From: Clostridium sp. AF37-5
GTDB lineage: Bacteria; Bacillota; Clostridia; Lachnospirales; Lachnospiraceae
Reading direction: 5' to 3'
Length of the DNA: 64,000 nucleotides
NCBI RefSeq assembly: GCF_003477605.1
Contig: NZ_QUDR01000012.1
Coordinates: 27,911-91,910 of the forward strand
Shown: positions 2,212 through 22,527 of the stretch, piece after piece
Position numbering within the stretch: the stretch's first letter is position 1
Layout of the letters: every line of letters starts with the position of its first letter
Notes under the pieces: generated by a model
The model's database searches: none
What the model was told of the DNA's origin: nothing
The model's input: the letters and a program-made list of their open reading frames with translations, nothing else
Program-made: the position numbers and the translations under genes

Positions 2212-2410
2212 AGGGGGCGTTGGCGCCTTTTTGGTTTTCGTAATTTATCAAGAAAAGTTTGTGCTTCGTGGGTGCTCCCGCTTAACAAACGCGTAAGGGT
2301 ATGGGCATGCAAAATACGCAATGCCTCATACCCACGTGTTTGTACCCACTCACCCCAAATCTTTTCTTGATAAATTACGGGGAATCCAAAAAGATTGCTA
2401 ACGAACCCCT
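2212..2410 (+). repeat. Palindromic repeat family 1, copy 1 (orientation A)
   Basis: A 199-nt imperfect palindrome that folds into one long hairpin. The outer ends are AGGGG/CCCCT. The next arm pairs CGTAATTTATCAAGAAAAG with its complement near 2361-2379. A one-sided bulge GCTCCCGCTTAA is followed by the inner hairpin (about 2286-2342: CAAAC/GTTTG, GGGTATG/CATACCC, GGCAT/ATGCC, loop AAAATAC). The core matches the five other copies. It lies between divergent genes and contains no credible gene. Confidence 0.85.
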
Positions 2411-2435
2411 GATGCAAACTAATAACTTTGACCTC

Positions 2436-2475
2436 ATATGCAACCTTTCTTCTCGGAAAAAGACAAAAGAGCTGC
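2436..2475 (+). repeat. 40-nt repeat family 2, unit 1
   Basis: A 40-nt unit with CAAC at positions 6-9 and AAAGAGCTGC at 31-40. It has the same spacing as seven related units in this window; GCAAC and the terminal GYTGC are complementary ends. Copy 1 of the large palindrome ends 26 nt upstream. Confidence 0.6.
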
Positions 2476-2488
2476 ATGCCTTTTGAAC

Positions 2489-2530
2489 AAAAGCAACCCA
2501 AAACAACGGAAAATTAGAAGAAAGAGTTGC
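2489..2530 (+). repeat. 40-nt repeat family 2, unit 2 (42 nt)
   Basis: A tandem neighbour of unit 1, same strand, 42 nt long, with CAAC at 6-9 and AAAGAGTTGC at the end. The remaining 2531-2853 is AT-rich (about 320 nt) and shows nothing else I can support beyond the upstream region of the next gene. Confidence 0.55.
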
Positions 2531-2853
2531 ATAGAACCATAAAGCCATCTTGACCATACATATAGTTCCCCTCAATTTTTTTGATACTATACTGGAACCC
2601 AATTGGCAGCAAATACTTAACATAGCTCAAATATCATTGAAATTTCTCAAAAAGAAAATGTCGATATAAATCACTTGCTTTTTAAATAATAGTAATACTT
2701 AGTTGTGTATATATCTATGAAATTTGTAATATCTTAATTGCCTGTAAATTGGGATTAAAGACTAATATAGATAATGACAATAGAATAACTAAGGAGTATA
2801 ATAAGTAACTACAGGTGTTGTATTACGTGGGAATTGAAAGAGAGGGATAAATG

Positions 2854-3654
2854 ATGAATATAAGTTGGAAACGTGTTTGGATTCTTATAAAAAAATGGAG
2901 ACTGTTTATTATTAGTTCTGCTATAGCAGTTCTCTCATTAATATTTGTAATAAAGACATATGGCGAAACAAATGAGAGTTGTAAATTGATTAATGATATT
3001 GCAGTGTCCTTTTTTTCTGGGGCTCTTTTTGCTGATGTAACTTTTTTTGTTGAAATAAGAATTGCAACGCAAAAAGAATGGCAACAATTTGCTAATGTTA
3101 TTTCAAAATACATTTTTGAACTTGACAAAAAAATTTTCGAATTAGAGAAGGAAAACATTCTAACAGAGGATAGAAATAGAATAAGAGAATTGGAACACAT
3201 TAATGAGTGCATTGGAGAAATGATTGATGAGATACGTCAGTATAATATGATATATTTTCTGAAGGCATATCAAATGGAAGTTTTTTTAGGAAAATTGTTA
3301 TGTGTTATTGAAAGATATCTAGAGATTATTAAAAAAGAAGAGAAAATAGAAAAGCAGAAAAAACTTTTTTCTAGATTAATGAAGAAATTAATTATAGAGA
3401 AAGAGGTGCCCGTTGAAGAAGCGGCAGAGGTGTATCCTTATGATTCTTTTTGCGAAAATGATTTAGATGAAGTTGATAAATTGGTATTAAATGGTATGAG
3501 TGATTCTACAATGAATGATAAACTAAAAATTTGTGATGATTCTGACCTTTCTCATGGAACGGAGTATAGTTTTGCAGAGAAACTAAAAAAGAGATATAAC
3601 ATTGTTAATTATTATATTGTACATGTTTTGCCGAAGGAGCATTTTTTGTTTTAG
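2854..3654 (+). CDS. Hypothetical membrane-anchored, charged helical protein
   Basis: I do not recognise this 266-residue protein. It has a short basic N-terminus, two hydrophobic segments (about residues 17-35 and 46-66), and then a long Lys/Glu-rich, probably helical or coiled-coil cytoplasmic region (about 80-185). An acidic stretch and a basic tail follow. ATG at 2854 is preferred over 2851 because the AGAGGG ribosome binding site (2841-2846) is better spaced from it. The gene is visibly more AT-rich than its neighbours, has no operon partner, and is bracketed by family-1 palindromes copy 1 and copy 2 in inverted orientation. That suggests an accessory or acquired gene. Function unknown. 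Confidence 0.65.
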   Translation: MNISWKRVWILIKKWRLFIISSAIAVLSLIFVIKTYGETNESCKLINDIAVSFFSGALFADVTFFVEIRIATQKEWQQFANVISKYIFELDKKIFELEKENILTEDRNRIRELEHINECIGEMIDEIRQYNMIYFLKAYQMEVFLGKLLCVIERYLEIIKKEEKIEKQKKLFSRLMKKLIIEKEVPVEEAAEVYPYDSFCENDLDEVDKLVLNGMSDSTMNDKLKICDDSDLSHGTEYSFAEKLKKRYNIVNYYIVHVLPKEHFLF

Positions 3655-3759
3655 TACTCCAAAACTGATTGTACGCAGCCTTAGAATAGGAGCGTTTCTT
3701 GTTAAGCATTTTTTATAAGAGAAAGAATCATACTAAGTTTCAAATGCGTAGTTTGTGAC

Positions 3760-3958
3760 AGGGGGGCACTTCCGATTTTTTGTTTTCTAATAAATCATCA
3801 AGAAAAGATTTGGGGTGAGTGGGTACAAACACGTGGGTATCTGGCATTGCGTATTTTGCATGCCGATACCCATACGCGTTTGTTAAGCGGGAGCGCCCAC
3901 GAAGCACAAACTTTTCTTGATGATTTATGGAAACCTAAAAAATCGGCAACGACCCCCT
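3760..3958 (-). repeat. Palindromic repeat family 1, copy 2 (reverse orientation)
   Basis: A 199-nt palindrome of the same length and end sequences as copy 1 (AGGGGG/CCCCCT, then CCGATTTTTT/AAAAAATCGG, then ATAAATCATCAAGAAAAG and its complement). The inner hairpin is the reverse complement of copy 1's core. Its right end lies 3 nt before the -35 box of the polysaccharide operon. Short open frames inside it are by-products of the repeat. Confidence 0.85.
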
Positions 3959-3961
3959 ACA

Positions 3962-3991
3962 TTGACAATAACTTTCCATCTATGGTAAAAT
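3962..3991 (+). promoter_or_regulatory. Sigma-A promoter of the polysaccharide operon
   Basis: TTGACA (3962-3967), 18-nt spacer, TAAAAT (3986-3991) with an extended TG at 3983-3984. It lies 47 nt before the start codon of the priming transferase. The adjacent palindrome could influence this promoter; that is inference. Confidence 0.7.
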
Positions 3992-4037
3992 TACTATACT
4001 TGTGCATGACAGACAGTTTGGGAGGTGGATGGTTGTC

Positions 4038-5474
4038 ATGAATAAAAATTATGACCCGTACAAGAAGACGATTTTGTTCTTCTTTTCCTTAATAAGCGTG
4101 GCATTGATGGCGACAGTTTTTGCGTATTTCTGGTACCGCGTGTACTGGGACACGATGTACTTTTTCCATTTCTACCGCAAAGGTAACTGGGCTTTGATTG
4201 GGCTTTACGCAATTTTAGTGTACTTTTTCTCAACGATGTATGGGGCACTCAGAATTGGACAGCTGCGGCGGATGGAAGTGGTGCTGTCGCAGTTTTTAGC
4301 TACATTTTTAGCAAATATTGTGATGTATTTCGTGATTTGTCTGCTGGCTTTTGGGCTTGTCAATCCGGGATACATGATTTTGATGCAGTTAATTGACTGC
4401 GTGATTGCGGTTGTTTGGACAGTTGTGACGAGACGATTGTATAACCGCATTTTCCAGCCGTGGAAAATTCTTCTGATTTATGGTGACAGACCGGCGTCGG
4501 AGTTAGTCGATAAATTGGAGACAAGACGTGATAAGTATGCGATTTACGGGGCAATTGATGCCCATGCCGGAATCGACCGCATTGCCGAGACGGTGAAAGA
4601 TTATCAGGCGGTTTTGATTGGAGATATTGCGGCGGAAACAAGAAATGAAATTTTAAAATATTGTTATGGAAATGGAATCCGGGCGTATGTAATGCCGAAG
4701 ATTTCCGATATTATTTTGATGGGTGGCGACGAAATTCATGTGTTTGACACCCCATTTTTGCTGTCTAAGGGATATTCTTTGAGTTTCGACCAGCGGTTTT
4801 GGAAGCGTACGGTAGATTTGCTCATTGCGGTGCCGCTTACGATTTTATTGTCGCCGATTATGCTCTTGGTGGCATTTGCGATAAAATGCTGCGACGGAGG
4901 TCCGGTTTTTTACAGGCAGGTGCGGTGCACGAAAGACAATCGGGAATTTTCTATTTTAAAATTCCGCAGCATGATTGTGGATGCCGAAAAGTCGGGAGAA
5001 GCCGTTCTTGCCAAAGAGCATGATGAGCGGATTACGCCGGTGGGCCGTTTTTTGCGTGCTGTCCGGTTAGATGAACTGCCACAGCTTTTTAACGTGCTTT
5101 CCGGGGATATGTCGCTTGTCGGACCGAGACCGGAGCGGCCGGAAATTATTGCAGAATACCAGAAAGAAATGCCGGAGTTTGTTTTCCGCACCCGTGTAAA
5201 AGCCGGAGTGACCGGATTTGCACAGATTTACGGAAAATACAACACCGTTCCCTATGACAAACTGAAACTGGATTTGTTTTATATTGAAAATTACTCTCTG
5301 TGGATGGACTTGAAACTGATTCTTATGACAGTAAAAACCGTTTTGAAAAAGGACTCGACAGAGGGCGTGGATACCGACCAGACAACGGGATTGAAAGAAC
5401 ACACCGAGGGCAACGAAGAGGTCGAACGCAAGATTCAGGAATATACATCCAGGGAGGAATCGCATCATGAGTAA
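4038..5474 (+). CDS. Polyprenyl-phosphate sugar-1-phosphate transferase (priming)
   Basis: A 478-residue membrane enzyme that should start polysaccharide synthesis by moving a sugar-1-phosphate from a nucleotide sugar to undecaprenyl phosphate. About four membrane segments occupy the first 135 residues, followed by a CoA-binding-like middle domain. The catalytic bacterial sugar transferase domain starts at KRTVDLL (about 256) and includes FRSM (309-312), LDELPQL (344-350) and DMSLVGPRP (357-365). ATG at 4038 is chosen because GGAGG at 4021-4025 is well spaced; the earlier GTG at 4002 and ATG at 4029 are not. It is the first gene of the operon, and its end overlaps the next gene by 8 nt. The sugar transferred cannot be told from sequence. 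Confidence 0.92.
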   Translation: MNKNYDPYKKTILFFFSLISVALMATVFAYFWYRVYWDTMYFFHFYRKGNWALIGLYAILVYFFSTMYGALRIGQLRRMEVVLSQFLATFLANIVMYFVICLLAFGLVNPGYMILMQLIDCVIAVVWTVVTRRLYNRIFQPWKILLIYGDRPASELVDKLETRRDKYAIYGAIDAHAGIDRIAETVKDYQAVLIGDIAAETRNEILKYCYGNGIRAYVMPKISDIILMGGDEIHVFDTPFLLSKGYSLSFDQRFWKRTVDLLIAVPLTILLSPIMLLVAFAIKCCDGGPVFYRQVRCTKDNREFSILKFRSMIVDAEKSGEAVLAKEHDERITPVGRFLRAVRLDELPQLFNVLSGDMSLVGPRPERPEIIAEYQKEMPEFVFRTRVKAGVTGFAQIYGKYNTVPYDKLKLDLFYIENYSLWMDLKLILMTVKTVLKKDSTEGVDTDQTTGLKEHTEGNEEVERKIQEYTSREESHHE

Positions 5475-6612
5475 AAAAGCATTACTGGTAACAAGAGTCA
5501 GCGGCTTTGTACCACAGTTTGAAATGAACAACGTGAAAATATTACAGGAAATGGGATATGAAATCCATTATGCGGCAAACTTTGATGTTGTTGTGTATGG
5601 AAAAGACAATTCCCGGCTGATGGGCACGGGAATCCACCGACATCATATTCCGTTTGGGCGCTCGCCATTTTCCAGGGATGTGCGGACGTGCTATTTGGCG
5701 TTGAAAAAACTGATGCTTGAGGAAAAATTTGATTTGATTCACTGCCATATGCCGATGACAGGAGTTCTCACACGCAAAGCGGCAGAGAAAGTATACAAAA
5801 TGACAGGAAGAAAAGTTCCTGTTATTTATACCGCACATGGCTTTCATTTTTATGAGGGTGCACCGGTTTCCAATTGGAAATATTATGTAGCGGAAAAGCA
5901 TTATGCGAGATATACGGATAAACTTTTGGTGATTAATCAGGAAGATTATGCGAGGGCAAAAAAATTCCCGATTCGCGGAAATGTGGAATATGTGCAGGGT
6001 GTTGGCTTGAAACCGGCCCCTGAAAAAGACCCTGATTTTGATATGCGGAAAGCATACGGAATCCCGGCGGACCACAAAGTAGTTGTGAGTGTTGGCGAGC
6101 TGACGGAAGGAAAAAATAATGAAGTTATGCTCCGGGCGATGGATCGATTCCGCAGAAAAAAACTGACGTATCTTATTTGTGGTACTGGTGCGATGGAAGA
6201 ACATCTGCGCACCGTGGTGCGGGAGATGCATCTTGATGAACAGGTGGTATTTGCCGGTTACTGTGAGAAAATTCCGGATGTTCTTTTGCAGGCAGACTGC
6301 TTTGCCTTTCCATCGAAGCGTGAAGGACTTCCGGTAGCGATGATGGAGGCAATGCGTGCCGGACTCCCGGTGCTTGCCTTAGATATCCGTGGAAACCATG
6401 ATTTGATTTCCGATGGAGAAGGCGGATTTTTATTTGAAGAGGGAAATGCATCCGATTATGTAAAAGGTCTTTCCTTTTTCTTAGATTACCCGGAAGAGGC
6501 AAAACGGATGGGTGAATGGAACAAAAAAAGAGTGCAGGATTTTTCGATTGATTTAGTGGAAGAAAAAATGCGGAGAATTTATGCAGAGGCAGAAAGCGGG
6601 GAATTGAAATGA
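5467..6612 (+). CDS. Glycosyltransferase family 4 (EpsD-like)
   Basis: A 381-residue GT-B glycosyltransferase. The N-terminal acceptor domain includes IHCHMP (91-96) and the TAHGFHFY region (about 122-129), typical of EPS-type GT4 enzymes. The C-terminal donor-binding domain has GELTEGKN (210-217) and FPSKREGLPVAMMEA (281-295), the E-x7-E-type nucleotide-sugar site. It probably adds the second sugar to the lipid-linked primer at the inner membrane face. The start overlaps the upstream gene by 8 nt behind GGGAGG, and its stop overlaps the next gene as ATGA, so translation is probably coupled. Confidence 0.9.
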   Translation: MSKKALLVTRVSGFVPQFEMNNVKILQEMGYEIHYAANFDVVVYGKDNSRLMGTGIHRHHIPFGRSPFSRDVRTCYLALKKLMLEEKFDLIHCHMPMTGVLTRKAAEKVYKMTGRKVPVIYTAHGFHFYEGAPVSNWKYYVAEKHYARYTDKLLVINQEDYARAKKFPIRGNVEYVQGVGLKPAPEKDPDFDMRKAYGIPADHKVVVSVGELTEGKNNEVMLRAMDRFRRKKLTYLICGTGAMEEHLRTVVREMHLDEQVVFAGYCEKIPDVLLQADCFAFPSKREGLPVAMMEAMRAGLPVLALDIRGNHDLISDGEGGFLFEEGNASDYVKGLSFFLDYPEEAKRMGEWNKKRVQDFSIDLVEEKMRRIYAEAESGELK

Positions 6613-7607
6613 AACTTTTGACGGTGTCCATAGCCGCCTATCATGTGGAGGATTATCTTCGTGAAACATTGGATAGTTTTTTGATTCCGGAAGTAACGGA
6701 CCAGTTAGAAGTTTTGATTGTAAATGATGGTTCCGGTGAAGGGGTCAATGAAATTGCCCGTGAATATGAGGCTAATTATCCGGATGTATTCCGTTTGATT
6801 GATAAAGAAAATGGCGGTCATGGTTCGACGGTAAACCGCGGAATCGAAGAGGCAGCGGGTAAATATTTTAAGACCGTTGACGGGGACGATTACGTGTCCG
6901 CAGAAGGCTTGAAAGAGTTGCTTTCATATCTTCAGACCGCAGAGGCTGATTTGGTGGTGAATGACTACCATAGTTTTAACGATGCTTCCGGTGAAATGGT
7001 GAGTGAGATGCACCATGAATTTCCGGAAAAAGAGTATCGGAAAACGTATCCATTTGAGAAAGTCTGCGGCAAAGTTTACATTAATATGCATGCTGCTACT
7101 TACCGCACGGAATTGCTGAAAAAAATGGGAAGACGTCTGGATGAACATTGTTTTTATGTGGACGCCGAGTATAATTTGTATCCGATTCCGTTTGTGAAAA
7201 CAATTGCGTTTTTGGAAAAGCAGGTGTACTGTTACAGACTTGGGATGGAGACGCAGAGTATGAACATCCGAAATATGCAGAAAAACTGCGCACACCATGA
7301 GATGGTGCTGACACATTTGCTGGAATTTTATAAGGAAGAAGCAGAGCGTCTGACGCCGGAGAAAAAAGCATATGTGGCGGAAGGCGTAGCGAAAATATTG
7401 ACAAGCCAGTATAAAATTTATTTGAGTTATCCGGCAGAGGCGGTTCACAAAAATCAAATTGTGGCTTGGGATAAACGAATTAAAAAAGAATTTCCGGATA
7501 TTTACCACAGTGTGACAAACCGTGCCGTGAAAATGCTGCGGCATAGTGGGTATGGATTGTATCGTTTGGCGTCGTATTTATGCCGGAAGGCATACGGATG
7601 CGACTAG
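6609..7607 (+). CDS. Glycosyltransferase family 2
   Basis: A 332-residue GT-A fold transferase. Nucleotide-sugar motifs are VNDGS (38-42) and the metal-binding DGDD (91-94), followed by acceptor-side sequence with no transmembrane segment. It acts on the cytoplasmic side in building the operon's polysaccharide; donor and linkage are unknown. The 4-nt ATGA overlap with the GT4 gene indicates co-translation. The ABC permease gene begins 16 nt after its stop. Confidence 0.9.
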   Translation: MKLLTVSIAAYHVEDYLRETLDSFLIPEVTDQLEVLIVNDGSGEGVNEIAREYEANYPDVFRLIDKENGGHGSTVNRGIEEAAGKYFKTVDGDDYVSAEGLKELLSYLQTAEADLVVNDYHSFNDASGEMVSEMHHEFPEKEYRKTYPFEKVCGKVYINMHAATYRTELLKKMGRRLDEHCFYVDAEYNLYPIPFVKTIAFLEKQVYCYRLGMETQSMNIRNMQKNCAHHEMVLTHLLEFYKEEAERLTPEKKAYVAEGVAKILTSQYKIYLSYPAEAVHKNQIVAWDKRIKKEFPDIYHSVTNRAVKMLRHSGYGLYRLASYLCRKAYGCD

Positions 7608-7623
7608 AGAATGGAGGTAGTGT

Positions 7624-8427
7624 ATGTCATTATTTGTTGCCAGAATAAAGGGCTTTGTCCGATTCAAAGATTTGATGGGACAGCTTGTGAGCAGGGATTT
7701 GAAATTGAAATACCGCCGCAGTGTGCTGGGCTATTTGTGGAGTGTATTAAACCCGCTGTTTATTATGATTATCATGGCGATTGTATTTTCTAAAATGTTT
7801 ACGAGAGCCAGTATTACTAACTTCCCGGTATATTTGATGAGCGGCCAGGTTATGTTTAACTTTATGAATCTGTCCACGAAATCGGCGATTCAGTCGATTA
7901 ACGGAAGTGCATCACTCCTCAAAAAAACATATGTACCGAAATACGTTTTTACCGTTTCAAAAATTATCAGTGGTTTGATTGACTGTGTATTTTCAATGGG
8001 AGCGCTTTTGATTGTTATGTTATTTACCGGGGGAGAATTTACGTGGCGGCTTTTTCTGTTCCCGCTTGTGCTCGCACAGAATTTTGTATTTACGATGGGG
8101 CTGGGACTTTTCTTGGCCGCAACCAATGTATTTTTCCGGGATATCCAGTATATTTACAATGCCATTACAACGGCATGGCTTTATTTGACACCGATGTTTT
8201 ATCCGATTGAGGCACTGCCACAGAATCTTCAGTACATTGTATCGCATCTGAATCCGATGTACTCCTATGTTTCACAGTTTCGTATGCTGACGCTGCCAGG
8301 GTTCGTGCCGGCTGGAATCAGTATTATGTGGCTCATTATAATTGGAATTGTGTCGGCATTTCTGATGCTCATCATCGGACTGTGGGTATTTGTAAAGACG
8401 CAGGACAAATTTATTTTGTATATTTAA
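7624..8427 (+). CDS. ABC-2 polysaccharide/teichoic acid export permease (TagG/Wzm type)
   Basis: A 267-residue membrane component of an ABC exporter for lipid-linked polymers. An amphipathic N-terminus (LKLKYRRSVLGYLWSVLNP, residues 24-42) precedes six hydrophobic segments, and the conserved TPMFYPI lies before the last third; this is the usual layout of the TagG/Wzm/RfbA permeases. It has a GGAGG ribosome binding site at 7612-7616 (ATGGAGGTAGTGT). It should pair with the ATPase encoded 13 nt downstream to flip the finished polymer across the membrane, in place of a Wzx/Wzy system, which is absent here. Confidence 0.93.
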   Translation: MSLFVARIKGFVRFKDLMGQLVSRDLKLKYRRSVLGYLWSVLNPLFIMIIMAIVFSKMFTRASITNFPVYLMSGQVMFNFMNLSTKSAIQSINGSASLLKKTYVPKYVFTVSKIISGLIDCVFSMGALLIVMLFTGGEFTWRLFLFPLVLAQNFVFTMGLGLFLAATNVFFRDIQYIYNAITTAWLYLTPMFYPIEALPQNLQYIVSHLNPMYSYVSQFRMLTLPGFVPAGISIMWLIIIGIVSAFLMLIIGLWVFVKTQDKFILYI

Positions 8428-8440
8428 GGAGGAGAATGGC

Positions 8441-9181
8441 GTGAATGATATTGCAATCGATGTAAAAGATGTGACGATACGGTTTAATCTGGCATCGGAA
8501 AAAATTGATAATCTAAAAGAATATTTTGTAAAATTAATCAAACATGAACTTCTCTTTCAGGAGTTTCTTGCCGTCCGGGATGCTTCTTTTACAATCCGTA
8601 AAGGAGAGGCGTGGGCGCTTGTGGGAAGCAATGGTTCCGGCAAGTCAACACTTTTGAAGGCAATCAGCGGAATTTTGAAACCGTACAAAGGGGAGATTGT
8701 TGTAAATGGAACGATTTCTCCGCTATTGGAGCTTGGCGCCGGTTTTGATATGAATCTGACGGCAAGGGAAAATATCTTTTTGAATGGAACAGTGCTTGGA
8801 CATTCTAAGAAATATATGCAGGAGCATTTTGATGAAATTGTGGAGTTTTCAGAACTTCATAAGTTTTTGGATTCGCCGGTGAAAAACTTTTCATCCGGTA
8901 TGCGTGCAAGGCTTGGCTTCTCGATTGCTACGATTGTGCGTCCGGACATTTTGATTGTGGATGAGATTCTGGCGGTTGGCGACTATTCGTTCCAGCAGAA
9001 GTGTTTGAAGCGAATGGATGAAATGATGGGCGGCGGAACAACGCTTTTGTTTGTATCACATTCGATTGACCAGGTGCGTAAACTCTGCGACCATGCGGTG
9101 TGGATTAATAAGGGACAGATTATGCAGATTGGCGAGGTAAATGAAGTGTGTGATGCCTATATGGCAACTCAGAAGAAATAG
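8441..9181 (+). CDS. ABC exporter ATPase (TagH/Wzt type)
   Basis: A 246-residue ATPase powering the TagG/Wzm-like permease. Walker A is GSNGSGKS (62-69), the signature SSGMRA (151-156), Walker B ILIVDE (170-175) and the switch histidine is in SHS (about 206-208). The 20-odd residue insertion before the strand leading to Walker A is typical of the TagH/Wzt branch. It lacks the C-terminal carbohydrate-binding domain of long Wzt proteins, so export should not need a modified chain end. The start is GTG, supported by AGGAGG at 8428-8433. Confidence 0.93.
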   Translation: MNDIAIDVKDVTIRFNLASEKIDNLKEYFVKLIKHELLFQEFLAVRDASFTIRKGEAWALVGSNGSGKSTLLKAISGILKPYKGEIVVNGTISPLLELGAGFDMNLTARENIFLNGTVLGHSKKYMQEHFDEIVEFSELHKFLDSPVKNFSSGMRARLGFSIATIVRPDILIVDEILAVGDYSFQQKCLKRMDEMMGGGTTLLFVSHSIDQVRKLCDHAVWINKGQIMQIGEVNEVCDAYMATQKK

Positions 9182-9190
9182 AGGATAAAA

Positions 9191-10945
9191 ATGATATTAC
9201 AGAATTTAGTTTTTCCAAAAGAAAATATTTGCAATGAGCCGGAGCTTTATTTCCATGGGACGACAGACGGAAAAATACCGGCTGGAAATGAAGCGGATTT
9301 ATTTACTTATTTTAATAGTTTTTCGGCTTATAAATGGAAAATGTATACGAAAATAAAAGAGGTTCGATTCCGCCTGCGCTGTAAGGGAAGCTGCATGGTT
9401 CGACTGTGGGATGCCGGAGTTACGGGTGGAACAATGGCATTGACTGAAAATTTTACCAGTGAGAGACATAGGCAGGCAGATCCGGATGAGGTTTCTCTTT
9501 CCTTTTCTCTGGCAGACGTAAAGGGAATTGTTTACGCAACGGTTAGGGCAGACAGTGATACGGAGATTCTCGGTGGATGTTTTGAGACAGTTTTTGAACC
9601 CATCCAGTTAGCGAAAATAGCGATTGGAATTTGTACATTCCGGCGCGAAGAATTTGTGAAGAAAACGCTGGAAACTTTAAAGCGTGAAACGATGGAAAAT
9701 CCGGATTCACCGCTTTATCAGAATGTTTATGTTTATGTGTCGGATAACGGACAGACGCTTCCTTGCGAAGAGTTGTCAAACGACAGAATTTTTGTGATGC
9801 CAAATCGAAACACCGGCGGCTCCGGCGGTTTTGGACGCTGCATGAAAGAAGCATATGAGGATAGGGAAAAGTATGGCCTCACACATATTTTATTGATGGA
9901 TGATGATATTGTACTGGAACCGGAGTCACTTTTCAGAACGTATACACTTCTTAACTTCTTAAAAGAGGAGCGGAAAGGGGCTATGCTCGGCGGAGGGCTT
10001 TTGCGTCTTGATATCCCTTACATTCAGCATGCGAATGGAGAACTTTGGCAGGGGGGACGTATTGGTTTTACTAAGCGTGGCTATGATTTACGGAGAATGA
10101 CAGATGTTGTCCGCAATGAATATAATCTCCCGATGGACTATAATGGCTGGTGGTACTGCTGCGTGCCGTTAGCAGCACAATTTCGTGGTTTTCCGCTTCC
10201 AATTTTTATTCATGGCGACGATATTGAATATGGTCTGCGTTTCGATGGAAATATTATGACAATGAACGGAATTGGTGTGTGGCATGATGCGTTCGATAAT
10301 AGAAAGGCGTCTTCCATGGAATATTACGATATGAGAAACACATTGATTGCCTGTGCCATCCATCATCCGGAGTATTCTCGTCTGCACATGATAAAACGTG
10401 TTGCGAGACATCTTATTGGACAAATGCTTCATCTTCGCGTGAAAGATCAGGAATTGACGATGAAGGGCGTCGAAGATTTCTGTAAGGGAACTGATTTTTT
10501 GAAGGAACTAGATCCGACAAAACTTCATCCGGAAATCATGAAAATGGGTTATGCCATGCAGGATGTTTCGGATGATTTACACAAGTTTGGCGTTGATGTG
10601 GAAAAGACAAAGCCGCAGCCTTCGCATTTATATGAGGACGGTGGTTTTGCAAAGAAACATTTGCTGTCTGTGAACGGATGGCTTCTTCCGGCGAAAAAAG
10701 AGACGGCGGTGCTTCCTATGGGCGTGCATCCGGATGCTTTGTATCGCAGAAAAACGGCTCTTTTATACGACCCGGACACAAGCCGTGGATTTTATGTCGA
10801 ACGGAAAGCAAAAGATTTCTTTGCAACCATTGGCAGATGTTTCAAAATGGGCTGGCTGCTTGCAGGCAAGTATAAAAAGACCGTGAAAGATTTTCAGAAA
10901 AATGGTGCGGAATTGATTTCGTATGATTTCTGGAAAGGGTATTGA
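9191..10945 (+). CDS. GlfT2-like glycosyltransferase (galactofuranosyl-type)
   Basis: A 584-residue protein. The N-terminal beta-rich domain (about 1-135) resembles the jelly-roll domain of GlfT2-type polymerising galactofuranosyltransferases. The GT2 catalytic domain has NRNTGGSGGFGR (205-216), MDDD (236-239) binding metal and donor, GDDIEY (342-347) with the likely catalytic base region, and WHDAF (364-368). A helical C-terminal domain follows. By family it would transfer galactofuranose or a related furanose, but no UDP-galactopyranose mutase gene lies in the window, so the donor is uncertain. It is the last gene of the operon, 9 nt after the ATPase. Confidence 0.85.
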   Translation: MILQNLVFPKENICNEPELYFHGTTDGKIPAGNEADLFTYFNSFSAYKWKMYTKIKEVRFRLRCKGSCMVRLWDAGVTGGTMALTENFTSERHRQADPDEVSLSFSLADVKGIVYATVRADSDTEILGGCFETVFEPIQLAKIAIGICTFRREEFVKKTLETLKRETMENPDSPLYQNVYVYVSDNGQTLPCEELSNDRIFVMPNRNTGGSGGFGRCMKEAYEDREKYGLTHILLMDDDIVLEPESLFRTYTLLNFLKEERKGAMLGGGLLRLDIPYIQHANGELWQGGRIGFTKRGYDLRRMTDVVRNEYNLPMDYNGWWYCCVPLAAQFRGFPLPIFIHGDDIEYGLRFDGNIMTMNGIGVWHDAFDNRKASSMEYYDMRNTLIACAIHHPEYSRLHMIKRVARHLIGQMLHLRVKDQELTMKGVEDFCKGTDFLKELDPTKLHPEIMKMGYAMQDVSDDLHKFGVDVEKTKPQPSHLYEDGGFAKKHLLSVNGWLLPAKKETAVLPMGVHPDALYRRKTALLYDPDTSRGFYVERKAKDFFATIGRCFKMGWLLAGKYKKTVKDFQKNGAELISYDFWKGY

Positions 10946-11746: not shown

Positions 11747-11776
11747 AGTTAAGTCTTTAAATTGCAAAAAAAGTCG

Positions 11777-14885: not shown

Positions 14886-14904
14886 TTTATTACTCCTTAC
14901 ATTC

Positions 14905-16032
14905 TTAGTTCTCTAATATATGAAGAATTTGTTCACATGCTGTTCCTTTTTCAAAAGAACCCATGGTTTCAAAATGCTGTTTGTACAAAGTTGTGAAGTC
15001 TTCGTCCCGGTATTTGACTGCCATGTCGGGAAGTGCCGCAATGTCTTTGCATTTCAAATACGGCCATGTGTCATATGGAACAAAGAAACCGCGGTCCATT
15101 TGTTCGTATTCTTTCAGGCGGTTTTCCAATAAGAAAACCGGGCGCCCGGTCAAGGCAAAATCCCAGATGCAGGAAGAAAAATCGGTTACCAGTAAATCAC
15201 TGGTGTAAAGTAAGTCCTGCATTTCATAATAGGCATTTCCGTCAAGAATCCGCTCATCAAGGGATTCATTTGTTTCCTCTCGGAAATAATGTGAGCGGTA
15301 AAGAACAATCCAGTTGCTTTTGGTCGCTTCTTCTAAACGGTCAATTGTTTCTGATAAATAGCGCAAATCGTACTGCTCTTTTTCCGGAGCAGTCATCTGA
15401 AAACTTGGCGCAAAAAGCAAAATTTTTGTCTGCTCGCTTATATGATAAAAGTCCTGTACACGTTTTTTGATTTCCGGATGCTTGGAGAAAAAAATATCGT
15501 TTCTTGGCGTTCCGGTTTCCAAAAAGATTTTTCGGTCTAACGAAAATGCTTCGGCGTACATGTCAGTGCATGCTTGGCAGGAAGACACAAAGTAATCTAA
15601 CCGCTTATACCATTTGTCGAAATTTGCGGCAAAGGTTTTATCTTCGTTTATTGTTTCTTTGCCGACTTTTTTATAAGCACCGCCACCATGCCAGGTTGTC
15701 AAAAAGATTTGTCCTCTTTTTTTGACAAGTGCTTCATCAATCATATCGTTAGTGATAAAAATACCACAGCGCAGAAATAATTTAAAATAGCTTAAGCTTC
15801 GCTGGCGCACGACTGTAATTCCGGTCCGCATCGTACAGGTTTCCGGAAAACGGGTGACCCAGATAAGTTCGTATTCTCCCGGATGTTTTAACCAAAACGA
15901 CTCCATAAGAATACTTGGGTTGCACACATAGCCCTTGCGGTTATTCGCATAAAACATAATCCGGTTTTTTTTGACCGGAATAAAAAACAGCAGGTACTGA
16001 AGAAGTCGTGCTATTCGTATTTTTGCTTTCAT
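14905..16032 (-). CDS. CDP-glycerol glycerophosphotransferase family protein
   Basis: A 375-residue, single-domain relative of TagB/TagF. Active-site motifs are TWHGGG (113-118), YRSH (245-248, in place of the usual KxHP) and TDFSS (283-287). A hydrophobic/basic N-terminus may sit against the membrane. It should transfer glycerol-phosphate (or a similar polyol-phosphate) from a CDP-activated donor to a lipid-linked glycan. It forms a two-gene unit with the larger fusion protein and converges on the polysaccharide operon, so the two transcription units probably build one surface polymer (inference from position). Confidence 0.88.
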   Translation of the reverse strand: MKAKIRIARLLQYLLFFIPVKKNRIMFYANNRKGYVCNPSILMESFWLKHPGEYELIWVTRFPETCTMRTGITVVRQRSLSYFKLFLRCGIFITNDMIDEALVKKRGQIFLTTWHGGGAYKKVGKETINEDKTFAANFDKWYKRLDYFVSSCQACTDMYAEAFSLDRKIFLETGTPRNDIFFSKHPEIKKRVQDFYHISEQTKILLFAPSFQMTAPEKEQYDLRYLSETIDRLEEATKSNWIVLYRSHYFREETNESLDERILDGNAYYEMQDLLYTSDLLVTDFSSCIWDFALTGRPVFLLENRLKEYEQMDRGFFVPYDTWPYLKCKDIAALPDMAVKYRDEDFTTLYKQHFETMGSFEKGTACEQILHILEN

Positions 16033-16120
16033 ATTAAAACGCTTCCTCTTTCCTTTTTCATAACCTCAATATTTTACTACAGAGCATAAATAGATGTCAA
16101 GTGTTGACAAATCAAGGGGT

Positions 16121-16300
16121 TGGCAGTTGTTAAGGATTCCATAAATCATCAAGAAAAGTTTGTGCTTCGCGGGCACTCTCGTTTGACAAACGCGTAGGGG
16201 TATCGGCATGCAAAATACGCAATGCCAGATACCCACGTGTTTGTATCCGCTCTTCACGAACTTTTCTTGATGATTAAATGCAAGCCTAATAAGCTGCCAG
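16121..16300 (+). repeat. Palindromic repeat family 1, copy 3 (orientation A)
   Basis: An imperfect palindrome of about 180 nt. Its outer arm TGGCAG pairs with CTGCCA, and ATCATCAAGAAAAGTT with AACTTTTCTTGATGAT. The bulge (ACTCTCGTTTGA) is the most diverged of the family. The inner hairpin CAAACGCGT...ACGTGTTTG, with TATC/GATA and loop AAAATAC, is intact. The next stem reads GCGG/CCGC where copies 1, 2 and 5 have GTGGG/CCCAC. Confidence 0.82.
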
Positions 16301-16352
16301 CAGATACTTGTTAGTGAATCTCTCCTGCACGAATTAGGTGCGCAGTTTTGAA

Positions 16353-16392
16353 ACAACGCTTTTCCTGCAATTTGCTCTATAGGGTTGCATGT
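16353..16392 (-). repeat. 40-nt repeat family 2, unit 3
   Basis: On the minus strand, 40 nt with ATGCAACC near the start and AAAGCGTTGT as the last ten bases. Spacing is the same as in the other units. Confidence 0.6.
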
Positions 16393-16426
16393 GTTAGGCT
16401 TCATCTGGAGAAATTAGATGGCACAA

Positions 16427-16466
16427 GCAACTCTTTGTGGTAATTTTCGCTGTTTAGGTTGTTTTT
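16427..16466 (-). repeat. 40-nt repeat family 2, unit 4
   Basis: On the minus strand, 40 nt starting AAAAACAACC and ending AAAGAGTTGC. It is closely similar to the unit at 49966, including an internal GAAAATTAC/GAAATTAC. Confidence 0.6.
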
Positions 16467-16506
16467 TTCTTATATATTTTCTTGATGAAAGTTGAATGTG
16501 ACGAAA

Positions 16507-16546
16507 AAATGCAACCTTTTGAAGAAAATAAATGGAAAAGAGTTGT
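16507..16546 (+). repeat. 40-nt repeat family 2, unit 5
   Basis: On the plus strand, 40 nt starting AAATGCAACC and ending AAAGAGTTGT. It is inverted relative to units 3 and 4, and palindrome copy 4 starts 10 nt later. The whole 16033-16829 gap is made of repeats and holds no gene. Confidence 0.6.
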
Positions 16547-16556
16547 TCCATAGGGG

Positions 16557-16762
16557 CAAATGTTAGTTGTTTATCTTTTTAGGTTTCCGTAAATTAGCAG
16601 GAAAAGATTTGTGGTAAGTGAGTACAAACACGTGGGTATCAGGCATTGCGTATTTTGCATGCCGATACCCCTACGCGTTTGTTGAGCGTGAGCGCTCACG
16701 AACCACAAACTTTTCCTGCTAATTTACGGAAACCTAAAAATTTTAAAAGCAACAAACATTTG
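16557..16762 (-). repeat. Palindromic repeat family 1, copy 4 (reverse orientation)
   Basis: A palindrome of about 206 nt. The outer arm CAAATGTT...GTTGTTT pairs with its complement ending AACATTTG; the middle arm TTTTTAGGTTTCCGTAAATT is perfectly repeated in inverted form. Where copy 2 has ATCATCAAG this copy has TTAGCAGG, changed on both sides so that pairing is kept. The inner core is the reverse complement of orientation A. Confidence 0.85.
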
Positions 16763-16829
16763 AAAAAAGGATGACAAAAACAGAGGAGTTTCATATAATA
16801 AGTGTGAAGATATTTCTTTGGGGATTTAT

Positions 16830-17279
16830 ATGTCAGAAAAGAATAATTTTTTGTATGATGTCAGTATGTCCTATGTAAATGCCGGATGGCAGGAGCGTTA
16901 TTGTGCGCTGGTAAAGTATCTTGATGCATATCTGAAGGAGAATTGTGGTGAATTTTTTGCCGATTTGCAGCTTTACCAGACCGGGCCGATGAATTATGTA
17001 GTAGTGGCGGTGTATTATGATGTGCCGGGTGTCGGCGAGGCTCTTCCTAAGATTCTTGGATTTGTAAATGCAAAATATCGGGAAGTTGTTGGACATAATG
17101 TAAGACGAAAGCAGATTTTGAAGTTTGACTTAGCAAAAAAATTACACGGGCAGAGTGAAGTGTGTCTGCACGCTTCCTCGGAAGAGATGGAGGAATCAGA
17201 AGATGAACAACCGCGAGAGGATTATGCGTCTTCGACAGGAGAAGAAATTAGACAGGAACGAAATGATACAACTTCTTGA
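16830..17279 (+). CDS. Hypothetical protein overlapping hydE
   Basis: A 149-residue soluble protein I do not recognise. The N-terminal two thirds read like a compact alpha/beta domain (beta strand around MNYVVVAVYYDV). The last about 45 residues are acidic, low complexity and probably disordered. ATG at 16830 follows a TGGGGAT-type ribosome binding site; the TTG at 16818 is less likely. Its 3' end overlaps hydE by 77 nt in another frame, and the HydE ribosome binding site lies inside it. Tight coupling suggests a role near hydrogenase maturation, but this is inference from position only. Confidence 0.65.
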   Translation: MSEKNNFLYDVSMSYVNAGWQERYCALVKYLDAYLKENCGEFFADLQLYQTGPMNYVVVAVYYDVPGVGEALPKILGFVNAKYREVVGHNVRRKQILKFDLAKKLHGQSEVCLHASSEEMEESEDEQPREDYASSTGEEIRQERNDTTS

Positions 17280-18252
17280 AACAGCAAATAGAGAGGACCG
17301 AGAGTTTCTTGCCGCACAGGCGAGAGAGGTTCGGGAGAAGATTTATGGGAAGGACGTATTTGTACGGGGGCTGATTGAATTTACAAATATCTGCCGCAAT
17401 GATTGTTATTACTGCGGGATACGCAAAAGTAACGAAAAAGTGGAGCGGTACCGCCTGACGCCGGAAGAAATTTTGTCCTGTGCCAAAGAAGGATATGAAT
17501 TGGGGTTTCGCACTTTTGTGCTGCAAGGCGGCGAAGATGGCTGGTTTACGAAAGAGCGGGTGGCTTCGATTGTCCGGGAATTAAAGAAACAATTTCCGGA
17601 TTGTGCAGTGACGTTATCTATCGGAGAGCGCACCAAAGAGGAATATGAATGTTTTCGTGAGGCGGGGGCAGACCGTTACCTTCTGCGCCACGAGACGGCG
17701 GACGACGCTCACTATAGAAAACTGCATCCTCAGGAAATGAAACTTAAAAACCGTAAAGAATGTTTATTTACCTTACGTGAACTTGGATATGAAGTAGGTG
17801 CCGGTTTTATGGTAGGCTCGCCGGGACAGACGGTGGAGTGTCTTGTTGAAGATTTTGAATTTTTGCAGGAACTGAAGCCCCATATGATTGGAATCGGACC
17901 GTTTCTTGCCCATCAGGATACACCATTTGGTGCAGAAGAAAATGGTTCCTATGAGCAGACACTTTTATTATTAAGTATTCTTCGTCTGATGTTTCCGGGG
18001 GTGTTACTTCCTGCGACGACAGCACTTGGAACAATTGCACCGGATGGACGAGAGCAGGGATTATTGGCAGGAGCGAATGTATTAATGCCAAATTTATCAC
18101 CGGTTTCTGTGCGGAAAAAGTACGAGCTGTATGATAATAAAATATGTACCGGGGAAGAGTCGGCACAGTGTAAAGATTGTTTAAGCAGGCGTGTGGAATC
18201 GGTTGGCTACCGGATTGTGACTGACCGGGGAGACAGCCGGATTGAGAAATAG
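17203..18252 (+). CDS. hydE: [FeFe] hydrogenase H-cluster radical SAM maturase HydE
   Basis: A 349-residue radical SAM enzyme of the BioB/HydE group, needed to build the H-cluster of [FeFe] hydrogenase. The SAM cluster motif CX3CX2C is C64, C68, C71. A second cysteine set near the C-terminus, C315, C323, C326 (CX7CX2C), matches the auxiliary cluster position known in Thermotoga maritima HydE. Other HydE-like segments are LQGGED, RHETAD and MVGSPGQT. ATG at 17203 is supported by GGAGG at 17189-17193. HydF, HydG and the hydrogenase are not in the window. The gene is followed 9 nt later by the DUF1294 fusion. Confidence 0.93.
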   Translation: MNNRERIMRLRQEKKLDRNEMIQLLETANREDREFLAAQAREVREKIYGKDVFVRGLIEFTNICRNDCYYCGIRKSNEKVERYRLTPEEILSCAKEGYELGFRTFVLQGGEDGWFTKERVASIVRELKKQFPDCAVTLSIGERTKEEYECFREAGADRYLLRHETADDAHYRKLHPQEMKLKNRKECLFTLRELGYEVGAGFMVGSPGQTVECLVEDFEFLQELKPHMIGIGPFLAHQDTPFGAEENGSYEQTLLLLSILRLMFPGVLLPATTALGTIAPDGREQGLLAGANVLMPNLSPVSVRKKYELYDNKICTGEESAQCKDCLSRRVESVGYRIVTDRGDSRIEK

Positions 18253-18261
18253 GAGGAACGT

Positions 18262-20031
18262 ATGATAGCGTATTTTTTGGCAGCATATTTGATTTTAAAT
18301 GGAATTGTATTTTTGATTTACGGAGTGGACAAGTATAAAGCAGTTCACAATAAGTGGAGAATCCCGGAAACTACCCTTCTTGTTATCGCTGTTATTGGTG
18401 TAATAGGTGCCTTTGCCGGAATGCATGTTTTTCATCACAAAACACGTAAACCAAAGTTTTATGTAGGGGTTCCCGTTATCTTTTTCTTGGAGGTGCTTGC
18501 TGTTATTGGTATTTTTTGTGCGGGTGGGAAATACATGGGGAACACTGCCAAAAAAGAAAATGCAGCGAAAACGGCGAGCCTTTCTTCCACATCAAGGGAG
18601 GGATTAAAAAGAGGGGAAGAATTTACCATTGAAAAACAGGAGTTTAAGAAAAGTCTTTCGCAGGAGTCTTTTTCGATTCCATTCAATACAATGGATGAGT
18701 GTTATCGTGTGGGGGACTTGTTTGTGTCTTTTGATTCGGGAACAAAATCAAAAATAAAGATTTATTTTTGGAATCCAAAGACAATGAAAGTTCCGGCTGT
18801 ATATACATATCGTGAAAATGTTGAAAATTATGATGATTCGTTATTTGCAGCGAATGAGAGCGGACAATATGTGATTGCGCAGATTGCCGAAAAGTTAATT
18901 GTATTTAATTTTTTGGGAAAGGCCATGAAGGAGATTTCAATTGAAGAAGGCCGGCCAACAGATATTATGGAAAAGGATGGGAAACAATACATTTTGACAT
19001 CATCGACGCTTTATGTCGGCAGTATCCAGTCGGGATTTCGTAAGGTGGGAAGCAATTCTGACAAAGAGGAAAAGAAGAATGCCGAGGAGGATAGATGGTC
19101 GTTAGAATTTTTATTTTCCTGTGGAGATTATGTTTATGTATTGATGACTGTGCCTGCTAAGTATCATAGTTTTAGTTGGTTGTGGCAGATATCATTAAAA
19201 AATGGCGAGTGGAAAAAAATCATGGACGAAATGCCCGGCTTTTCTTTTGATAAGGATACAAAAGAAGTGGCAGCGGGAATTGAAATTGGCGAAAAAAATG
19301 CTGAGGTATTGTATTATAAATTCCATGAAGATGGAACGTATGAAAAGAAAAAAATCAAGGCGATTCCGGGAGCTGTGGAAAATGGAGTTATTTACACCGC
19401 ATCGAAAAAAGAATTTCTCGCTATTTCGGTGAAAGACAACAAAAAAACGGTGTTAAAGCATGTAGGGCGGTATTGTGAAATTGCAGATTTAAAGTATGAA
19501 AATTTAAGTAATGTAAGGCAGGAAAAAAAGGGGAAAATTATTTACAAGGTATCCGTTTATTTGTCGGAGAAACCGATGAAAAACCGGTATGGAAAGCCGA
19601 TGCCGGATTATGAAAATTATTACTGCTATGATGTGGAAACAAAGCAGACGCAGACAGTGAATACAGGTGTCAGCTATATAGATTTTGATTATGCGGAAGG
19701 AAAGACATATATGAAAAATCGGGAAAAATGGCTTACACTTGAAAAGGAAACGAACATGGTAGAAATGGCAATTGATTATATGTATGAGGATAATGCGACA
19801 CCGGATAAAAGAGTTGTGCGTGTGGCGCAAAAAGACAAGCAGGAAAAGGTAGTCTCGGATAAAGTGTATACTTTTTGTGGAGACGAACAAGGAAATTGCC
19901 GGATTGAAGATGTGACTGGCAAGTATAGAACGCTTGAGAAGAAAGAAAAGTGGTTTACAATTACAGCAAAACAAGTAAAAACGATTTCGGATAAGAAGTT
20001 GTTAAAAGGGCTGATGAAAACGGATGAATAG
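18262..20031 (+). CDS. DUF1294 membrane domain fused to large extracytoplasmic domain
   Basis: A 589-residue protein. Residues 1-90 match the small DUF1294 membrane family, with GVDKYKA (24-30), a KWRIPE motif (36-41) and HHKTRKPKF (58-66) between three hydrophobic segments. After a Ser/Thr/Lys linker come about 480 residues rich in beta strands with repeated 'W..L....G.W'-like and aromatic/Gly-Lys turns. This suggests a beta-propeller-like domain, probably outside the membrane. Ordinary DUF1294 proteins are about 90-200 residues, so the long C-terminus is unusual. The ribosome binding site is AGGAGG at 18252-18257. It may be co-transcribed with hydE. Function unknown. Confidence 0.75.
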   Translation: MIAYFLAAYLILNGIVFLIYGVDKYKAVHNKWRIPETTLLVIAVIGVIGAFAGMHVFHHKTRKPKFYVGVPVIFFLEVLAVIGIFCAGGKYMGNTAKKENAAKTASLSSTSREGLKRGEEFTIEKQEFKKSLSQESFSIPFNTMDECYRVGDLFVSFDSGTKSKIKIYFWNPKTMKVPAVYTYRENVENYDDSLFAANESGQYVIAQIAEKLIVFNFLGKAMKEISIEEGRPTDIMEKDGKQYILTSSTLYVGSIQSGFRKVGSNSDKEEKKNAEEDRWSLEFLFSCGDYVYVLMTVPAKYHSFSWLWQISLKNGEWKKIMDEMPGFSFDKDTKEVAAGIEIGEKNAEVLYYKFHEDGTYEKKKIKAIPGAVENGVIYTASKKEFLAISVKDNKKTVLKHVGRYCEIADLKYENLSNVRQEKKGKIIYKVSVYLSEKPMKNRYGKPMPDYENYYCYDVETKQTQTVNTGVSYIDFDYAEGKTYMKNREKWLTLEKETNMVEMAIDYMYEDNATPDKRVVRVAQKDKQEKVVSDKVYTFCGDEQGNCRIEDVTGKYRTLEKKEKWFTITAKQVKTISDKKLLKGLMKTDE

Positions 20032-20184
20032 GGGCACGCATGTGATATGTTTTGTCTTGCATGTTGTAGAAAATGATGTTAGACTATAAGAGATAAGCAG
20101 ACAGAAAGGATACTTGAATTGATGGAGAAGATGGAGAAAACATCTTACAATGAGTAAATTATTTATATGTCAAGGAGGGGGAAT

Positions 20185-22140
20185 ATGAAAAAAACAATTA
20201 AGGGGAAACTTACACTAAACACAGCAATTTTTATTGTTGCAGCAATTATTGTCTGCGAAATTGTCAGTGTGAATGCATTAAAAACAAACATGACAAATCA
20301 GACAAGACAATATGTCAGCAGAGAGGCACAGACCAATGCACGTGTGGTTAATGAATGGCTGCAGGGGCAGGCAAACACGGTACATACAATTACGAATACG
20401 ATTGCTTTTATGAACACAAAAGATACGGATCACGTGATGGATTACCTGGAAAAAGCCTTGAGTGAGAATAAAGAGGCATTGATGTATTATTTGTGTTTTG
20501 GATATGATGGAGGAGTATTTCCTGCAAACCATTCTAAAATAGATCTGGATCCAACGACAAGAGACTGGTGGAAGCAGGCCATTAAGAAAAATAGTTTGAT
20601 TTATACGGCACCATATAAAGATTTTGCTTCTGGGAAAATGATTGTTACCATTGCAGAACCGCTGGAAATAAAAGGCGAACAGGCGGTTGTGCTGGCGGAT
20701 ATTACGATTGATACTTTGACTAAACTTGTTTCTAATGTAAGTACGGATGAAAACATTCAGGGCTTTTTGTTAGATGCCGATGGTATGGTTGTTTCGCATC
20801 AGAATAAGGATTATCTGCCGAAAGAGGAAGGAAATACTTCTTTGGCTAAGGTACTTTCTGTTAATGTAAAAGAGGTTTCTGAGATAACAGATTATGATGG
20901 ATATTCAAAATTTATTCATACCGCGCAGATTACAGCTACCGGATGGACATTTGGTGTAACGGAGAGGGAATCAGTAGTAACAACACAAGTGGTGAAGAGT
21001 GTGATTTTAGTTGTCGGAATCGGGGTTGTCCTTTTGATTCTCGTAGTTCTTCTTACCATTGCCAGTGTGAAGAAAAATTTGAGGCCACTTGAAAATATGA
21101 AGACATTTATCCGGGAGAAAGTCATCGGTGATTCTCAAAAGAATGTACATAAAAATGAGGTTGAGGAAATCTCTTATTTATTACAGGAGTTAGAACAGCG
21201 TTTTATTGGTGTGATTCGCAAAACAAAAGATGAATCCAATGTCATTCATACCAGAGTGGAAAATACGAATGACAAGGTCTCCTTAATTAATCAGAATATT
21301 ATGGAAATCAGTGCAGCAATGGAAGAAACCGGAGCAAACATTGATTCCCAGACAACCAGTATTCAAAACATTGATAAAACTTGCAAGGATACAACGCATG
21401 CAGTGGATGTTCTTGTATCCCATGCAGAAGAAATGTCTGATAAAGCGAAAGAGATTGGTGAGCGTGTCAATGAAGCGGTGCAGAAATTAATGACAGATAA
21501 AGACAGTGCTGTGGTGAAGGCGGACGAAAGCAGAAATCGTATGCAAATGGCGATTCAGCAGACAAGAATTATTGGCGAGATTGCAACTGTCTCAGCGTCA
21601 ATTGAAGAAATTGCTTCTCAGACAAATCTTCTTGCATTAAATGCTTCGATTGAGGCGGCAAGAGCCGGAGAGTCAGGAAAAGGATTTGCGGTTGTTGCGG
21701 AAGAAATCAAACAATTGAGTGAAGATACATCAAACGAAATTCGTAAAGTGAATGACTTGACGCAGAAAGTATTTGAAAGTGTGAAGATACTGTCCACTGA
21801 AAGTAACGAGTTATTAGTCTTTTTAGATGAGACAGTTTTGGCAGATTATGATAAATTTGCAAGTCTTGCGAATCAGTATAAAGAAGACGCAAATTATTAT
21901 GAGGAAACAAGCGGTTCCATGGAACATAATGCAGAAGAAGTAATGGACGCAATTCAAAGTATTTCAAATGTTTTGGAAAATGCAAGTTCAGCACAGATGG
22001 AACTTGCGTCTGCAGTAGAAAGCGTAAATGAGAATTTGCAGAACATGACAAGTTCAAGTGAAAGCATGACTAAGGAAACGAAGAATGCGATGGAAAGCGT
22101 AAATGCTTTGCGGGAGACGATGGAAAAATTTAATATGTAA
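20185..22140 (+). CDS. Methyl-accepting chemotaxis protein (dCache sensor)
   Basis: A 651-residue transmembrane chemoreceptor. TM1 lies near 10-30, followed by a periplasmic-side double-Cache domain containing [11 protein letters not shown], the pattern of amino-acid-type dCache pockets. TM2 lies near 275-300, followed by a cytoplasmic signalling coiled coil with the conserved tip [18 protein letters not shown]. It signals through CheW/CheA to flagella, so the organism should be motile. ATG at 20185 is chosen because AGGAGGGGG precedes it directly; the ATG at 20167 lies before that site. Transcribed alone. The ligand cannot be told with confidence. Confidence 0.93.
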
Positions 22141-22156
22141 AGCAATATACATATTC

Positions 22157-22307
22157 TTGGAATTTCCAGTCAATAAAGAAAGGTTATGTTTTGTGGGCGC
22201 TTCCGCTTAACAAGCGCGTAGGGGTATCGGCATGCTAAATACGCATGCCGGATACCCACGTGCTTGTACCCACGCAACATAACCTTTTTATTGACTGGAA
22301 ATTCCAA
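22157..22307 (+). repeat. Palindromic repeat family 1, copy 5 (orientation A)
   Basis: A 151-nt palindrome starting 17 nt after the MCP stop. The outer arm TTGGAATTTCCAGTCAATAA pairs almost perfectly with its complement. This arm and the next (GGTTATGTT/AACATAACC) share no sequence with copies 1-4. The core is conserved, with paired changes: CAAGC/GCTTG instead of CAAAC/GTTTG, apical stem GGCATGC/GCATGCC, loop TAAATAC. It may also act as the MCP terminator. Confidence 0.85.
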
Positions 22308-22401
22308 AAGAAGAACTATATTACTACATATTAATTTCTATCTATTTTGCAATTTCCCTTTTTCTTATTTTTCTCAAACCTAATCCCCAATCCATTCCGT
22401 A

Positions 22402-22527
22402 GCAAAAAAACACGACCCATTGACTGCATACAGCCACGCGGGTATGAGACATGCGTATTTAGCATGCCCATACCCTTGCGCGGCTGTTAAGCGGGAGCGT
22501 GCAGTCAATGGGGGTGTATTTTTTTGC
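22402..22527 (-). repeat. Palindromic repeat family 1, copy 6 (reverse orientation)
   Basis: A 126-nt palindrome, the most diverged copy. Its outer arm GCAAAAAAACAC...CCCATTGACTGCA pairs with TGCAGTCAATGGG...GTGTATTTTTTTGC and is unrelated in sequence to the other copies. In orientation A the core reads CAGCC/GGCTG, CGC/GCG, GGGTATG/CATACCC with loop TAAATAC and bulge GCTCCCGCTTAA. It shares the TAAATAC loop with its partner, copy 5. Confidence 0.82.

Follow-up and report, generated by a model that had tools for sequence, protein, structure and literature searches.

Repetitive extragenic palindromic (REP) elements are 20-40 bp long, have GTAG or CGTC as an unpaired tag and are often found facing one another (available portions of PMC3733652, in whose main text none of six Firmicutes/Clostridia terms occurs). 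The TnpA-REP protein reads a single folded strand and requires the GTAG, together with a bulge in the case of E. coli; the same source groups IntI, relaxases and TnpA (available portions of PMC8266576). Here we describe a family of large palindromes with a conserved, folded core, six copies of which lie in a 64,000-nucleotide stretch of Clostridium sp. AF37-5 (contig NZ_QUDR01000012.1, positions 27,911 to 91,910, which we refer to as the window). On balance we lean slightly towards reading them as a REP-like family of palindromic folded-DNA elements whose tip is selected through the binding of a putative protein. Like REPs, BIMEs and REPINs, as the available portions of PMC3733652 present them, the elements are high-copy, intergenic folded palindromes with neighbours in opposite orientation, yet they are far larger, at ~125-220 bp per hairpin (216-220 bp in genome G075) and longer with inserts, with a branched core, no unpaired GTAG/CGTC tag and no link to a Y1 transposase, and their carriers relate to a Eubacterium sp. 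metagenome-assembled genome (MAG). With integron attC sites and IS200/IS605 ends they would share, as a class, functional folded single-stranded DNA, but here the Y1 link is again lacking and the copies occur as convergent pairs or locus-specific tandem repeats, not as cassette arrays. They resemble miniature inverted-repeat transposable elements (MITEs) in being non-coding, in their terminal inverted repeats and, in G075, in an 8-bp target duplication; in MITEs the ends are the conserved part, whereas here the ends vary by lineage and the structured centre is conserved.

The initial annotation had described six palindromes of one common architecture, and all six were found at its coordinates with that architecture, at lengths of 126-206 bp. 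Common to them is a core of ~88 nt on long self-complementary arms. Hairpin 1 (2212-2410, + strand, orientation A, outer arms and core) folds at -99.9 kcal/mol (z -12.1), and its core, with a small arm, a CGTAA bulge and a loop, lies at 2265-2352 (79.9 bits with covariance model R2, to whose building all six window copies contributed); the core of hairpin 2 (3760-3958, - strand) lies at 3816-3903 (83.3 bits), that of hairpin 3 (16121-16300, +) at 16166-16253 (81.3 bits), that of hairpin 4 (16557-16762, -) at 16615-16702 (82.1 bits), that of hairpin 5 (22157-22307, +) at 22190-22276 (85.1 bits) and that of hairpin 6 (22402-22527, -) at 22421-22507 (76.5 bits). Hairpin 5 has the loop TAAATAC and, like hairpin 6, lacks one A. 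The extents first given hold as coordinates, although by eye palindromes 1-4 extend somewhat further out, and better-preserved relatives terminate near GTTTGTGTCAAG..CTTGACACAAAC (read by eye). The core pattern GGGTATSGGCATGCWAAATACGC, with up to 3 mismatches permitted, matches the window at six places and no more, every match exact and three on each strand, and 100 shuffles yield none; a second pattern, built on the 5' bulge, likewise has six matches and 0 in 100 shuffles. Fold z-scores run from -10.7 to -12.8 in the window copies (both strands folded for copy 1, DNA energies applied to copy 2) and from -8.7 to -16.4 in four relatives.

The family certainly exists and is larger than the six window copies. 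A core-pattern scan of a species-genome collection matched five contigs, one of them genuine (L004, from the Eubacterium sp. MAG); the other four were rejected as they have no match to model R2 (best 15.6 bits). As the initial annotation had proposed, a covariance model was searched against genomes: model R1, built from ten copies, detects the core in 23 of the 397 genomes examined from the family of L004 (E 1e-5), and with model R2, built with alignment A4 from sixty copies (55 distinct), 48 of 392 genomes from its order are positive (E 1e-6), the two genome samples overlapping. Counted with R2 at E 1e-4 in the 23 positive genomes, up to 150 candidates being scored in each genome, copy numbers reach 132 in G269, 131 in G111, 89 in G075, 77 in G038, 30 in G012 and 20 in G335, followed by 16, 15, 14, 13 and 12, with 1-9 in the remaining twelve. 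Four partial palindromes (L166, L161, L178 and L006 2851-3010) are broken within the core or close to it, which would be expected of unstable palindromes. A phage or plasmid origin was rejected: hairpin 1 found three faecal-virome contigs by blastn, recorded as phage, which by eye bear bacterial genes, and it found no plasmid match. Neither the seven viral contigs bearing one pattern match nor the four bearing the insert pattern match R2, three further patterns gave no viral match, and L009, in an apparent phage tail region, was set aside as a chance match.

The compensating stem changes first seen among six copies, with both sides altered together, are present in the alignment, and strong covariation extends to larger sets. 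Both outcomes that the initial annotation had named as refuting it were looked for, and neither occurred. In A4 (55 distinct copies), 28 of the 30 pairs are altered on both sides in one or more copies and 95.4% of cells are paired, vs. 68.7% in shuffles, giving a covariation score of 0.721 (shuffled 0.205, slid at most 0.091). The 47 copies of A7 come from genomes outside A4, and here 29 of 30 pairs vary on both sides, 93.7% of cells are paired and the score is 0.726 (shuffled 0.208, no more than 0.132 when slid); since the model was used to fit A7, the slid controls matter. Unpaired bases are fixed alongside: 14 of 30 unpaired positions in A7 are at least 91% fixed, the bulge A at 98%, the C and T of the small arm at 100% and the loop A A A.. 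A C at 98/91/98/79/45/100/100%. Many stem bases are just 34-60% fixed, and certain stem pairs (e.g. the C-G and G-C around the bulge) are also near fixed. Within CGTAG both the G and the T pair (51 G-C and 40 U-A in the 55 rows of A4), with GCAG, GTAA and GCAA variants. It is very likely that the fold is under selection.

Strong covariation together with fixed unpaired bases is typical of RNAs, and a structured non-coding RNA, or a 3'-untranslated region or leader RNA element acting post-transcriptionally, is the alternative to be taken first. Some copies do lie between genes of apparently one operon (e.g. L033 and L035, by eye). The element had not been recognised as a named RNA class, and the searches agree, with no Rfam match for the window elements at gathering score; the only such match in the window is an L10 leader (54244-54389), which served as RNA control. 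At relaxed E-values no Rfam match falls on the hairpins in window 1-24000, a chance-level microRNA match (E 0.63) lying inside the spacer of the first pair, and across 20 related loci six Rfam matches appear, none on elements. Were an RNA selected, G.U would be expected to be tolerated and A.C not. A4 has G.U above A.C (32 vs. 17), as an RNA would, but the two are equal or nearly so in the larger sets, at 49 and 49 of 3498 cells in A6 (117 distinct copies) and 41 and 38 in A5 (79 copies), and at 16 and 16 in A7 (47 copies); these sets overlap, save A4 with A7. The L10 leader control (26 sequences, being 25 of 30 loci found in carrier genomes plus the leader in the window, aligned without a model whereas the elements were aligned to R1 or R2) shows 44 G.U and 7 A.C of 364 cells, or 22 and 7 when one fixed wobble is removed. 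G.U thus makes up 1.1-2.0% of cells in the elements vs. 6.5-12% in the leader. Fisher tests, indicative values as the rows are related, give p 1.3e-5 (A6), 6e-5 (A5), 8e-4 (A7) and 0.019 (A4) against the 44:7 control, and 0.019 (A6) and 0.029 (A5) against the stricter 22:7. Ten tRNAs have 13 G.U and 0 A.C in 228 pairs; the tRNA finder itself favours G.U, and the L10 leader was therefore the preferred control. Nor is there a strand bias, as flanking open-reading frames (ORFs, called with a simple and crude caller) run both with the core in 27 and both opposite to it in 23 of 97 places. Given G.U close to A.C and no strand bias we lean to the fold mattering as DNA, and it is probably as DNA that it is selected, which goes beyond the initial annotation, where RNA or DNA was left open; a role as RNA we hold to be rather unlikely.

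The window hairpins form three inverted pairs (2212+/3760-, 16121+/16557- and 22157+/22402-), an arrangement absent from the initial annotation. Convergent pairing is frequent: among neighbours at most 1.5 kb apart in the loci collected, 20 distinct places (from ten genomes and the window) are convergent, 0 divergent and 4 tandem. The 20 places were reduced from 22 rows (L093 = L065, L095 = L074), and of these, six represent copies of the same G038 unit and two, L235/L245, are orthologues. The G038 unit, of ~495 bp, has two different hairpins separated by a spacer, with TAAACTGYAG as shared ends. In the window, the spacer of pair 1 (2411-3759) contains an ORF (2851-3654, +, 267 aa) without Pfam family; seven nameless database proteins match it, one of them identical, and it was rejected as a cargo gene, having no Pfam family and no similar gene in the other pairs examined. 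This spacer shares a short match with that of pair 2 (81% over 42 nt). The spacer of pair 2 (16301-16556) is homologous, in opposite orientation, to that of the L006 pair (78.5% over 163 nt, E 2e-35), in which the second hairpin is only partial, and that of pair 3 (22308-22401) is 94 nt long. Genome G111 carries direct tandem arrays of the element plus a locus-specific linker, with periods of 148, 159, 164, 178 and 187 bp and others, on contigs C21, C41 and C59, and tandem direct arrays of this kind were also noted at L016 1500-1910; one of the G111 arrays was read. At L008 5990-6181 a 180-nt inverted repeat (87%) at a contig end is a pair partner or an assembly fold-back.

Traces of movement are found in G075, where 15 core-bearing palindromes with both ends measure 216-220 bp and end in GTAACAGTTCAG..CTGAACTGTTAC. 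Among 20 elements with both ends there (41 loci), 10 have flanking 8-mers agreeing at 7-8 positions, vs. 1 of 380 permuted pairs; seven of these ten elements with 8-bp target duplications contain the core and three are shorter, core-less derivatives. The ends vary by lineage: GTAACAGTTCAG in G075, TAAACTGYAG in G038, GTTTGTGTCAAG in the window relatives and GAGTGTCAAAAGCC in G111. Element ends are also found elsewhere, and no transposase was seen beside the few examined. A different, 144-bp core-less element at L052 505-649 (G075) has the same GTAACAGTTCAGCC ends.

Conservation in place is seen between G208 and G455, apparently close species whose flanks are mostly 86-96% identical. Of 15 copies found in G208, 12 were examined; ten have an orthologous copy in G455 and two sit where G455 has none. 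Across the ten orthologous copies the core is 95.9% identical, the ORF flanks 93.1%, the arms 80.5% and the other flanks 82.7% (68.6% when gaps are counted, with three loci lacking such a flank by the mask used), and the core is ahead of the ORF flanks at eight of the ten loci (p 0.11 by sign test). In the orthologous arms there are 55 single-side losses, 22 single-side changes that keep the pair and 18 compensated changes; strict compensation in the arm helices is not claimed, and with these arm changes selection looks focused on the tip. At L231/L238, L232/L239 and L229/L241 the arm sequence is largely different between orthologues and still pairs, with the core recognisable.

The elements could alternatively be selfish palindromic miniature transposons whose tip has no role, pairing being kept only through arm-to-arm copying during replication. 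The 8-bp duplications and deletion derivatives of G075 fit this, as do arms that differ among lineages and between close species. Half of the unpaired core positions are, however, near fixed across lineages with unrelated arms, and at 8 of 10 shared loci the ORF flanks have diverged more than the core; these two results weigh against purely selfish elements because arm copying explains neither, and we give that explanation little credence. We would give about as little to a host chromosomal site, e.g. for a nucleoid or replication protein, with mobility as a by-product. Conservation in place, up to 131-132 copies in a genome (150 candidates scored) and the absence of a recurrent mobility gene nearby suit a host site, but the patchy occurrence in both genome samples and copy numbers from 1 to over 130 are unlike an essential one. 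That these are true REP/REPIN elements mobilised by a RAYT (Y1) transposase, for which high copy number, folded hairpins and neighbours facing each other as REPs do (available portions of PMC3733652) would speak, along with Y1 in G111 and G269, the genomes with most copies, is highly improbable given that no Y1 was detected in the four that follow (G075, G038, G012 and G335) nor in G148, G168, G222 and G302, these eight draft genomes holding 9-89 copies each, and that the GT of the would-be GTAG tag is paired and the tag itself varies.

For the preferred reading, a protein-bound folded-DNA tip, we propose the following. The working part would be the tip, in which a short arm CGCTYYCGC stands beside a long arm that bears both a CGYAR bulge and an AAA..AC loop, and it would form once the DNA turns single-stranded or extrudes. 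A putative sequence- and structure-specific protein would bind it, and this binding of folded DNA may be what selection keeps, the tip riding on arms of freely changing sequence whose main requirement would be pairing. The palindrome appears to have moved as a miniature transposon in one lineage at least, and in another it stays put at most loci, with its tip apparently kept by selection.

Several results weigh against this reading, besides the related rows of the wobble tests, the crude ORF calls and the sign test given above. The excess of G.U in A4 has a binomial p of 0.044, and against the stricter L10 control there is no difference for A4 (p 0.45) and barely one for A7 (p 0.063). At 2 of the 10 orthologous loci the ORF flanks are better conserved than the core, once clearly, at L229/L241 (core 78.3%, flanks 96.6%), the orthologous copies were chosen by model score, which possibly flatters the core, and the arms lose pairs as described. 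Target duplications were seen in none of the other lineages inspected, leaving G075 as the sole genome, and none is visible at the two sites empty in G455. No binding protein for the core was found. Y1 transposase (PF01797) is present in 13 of 23 positive genomes and in 11 of 17 others, a blunt contrast as two of the others (G009 and G018) were later positive with R2; its distribution does not track the element, and RAYT/Y1 was rejected as partner. IS66 (PF03050) occurs in 2 of 15 genomes. No recurrent mobility gene was recognised among the ORFs neighbouring the copies. IS66 had been considered as the mover in G075 for its GTAA ends, and was rejected since it is absent from G075. A common neighbour gene was rejected too: ten clusters recur in at least three genomes and by eye are transporters, GTPases and other common genes.

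More tentatively, and with clearly less confidence, the elements might form a class of chromosomal folded-DNA sites, in which a branched hairpin is read as DNA by a dedicated, putative protein at more than 100 places per genome at most, kept in place by selection and repeatedly taken as cargo by unrelated transposon ends. Few selected DNA hairpins are known that do not belong to phages, plasmids or integrons. As the tip is well defined, the covariance model works and some genomes have more than 100 copies, a binding protein can be sought directly. We also suggest counting G.U against A.C as a cheap check before a covarying intergenic motif is called an RNA. In the available portions of PMC8040213, 250 of 3161 candidate structured RNAs from gut metagenomes are palindromic and the four palindromic candidates described come mostly or wholly from Bacteroidetes; one palindromic candidate of that study could overlap the present family. 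Single-stranded DNA is raised for the STAXI motif in the available portions of PMC2864571. A literature search on these bacteria with palindromes, MITEs or structured RNAs gave no description of the family among the matches listed, subscription papers being mostly outside the search, so that a prior description is possible.

Two further features of the hairpins were observed. An insert of ~55 nt adjoins the small arm of the core in two different genomes (L012 123-230 and L006 2851-3010) and has its own stem-loop (AGAAGTCC/GGACTTCT vs. AGAGGTTCC/GGAACCTCT); the motif is present in 2 of 213 loci examined. At the outer ends of window-type hairpins an outward TTGACA-like hexamer is frequent, near promoter-like sequence of divergent flanking genes (by eye), at window 2190-2215, 3955-4000 and 16085-16125, at L006 2310-2370 and at L007 5240-5270, with an exact fit to TTGACA-17-TATAAT at the outer end of a hairpin in L006 (by eye).

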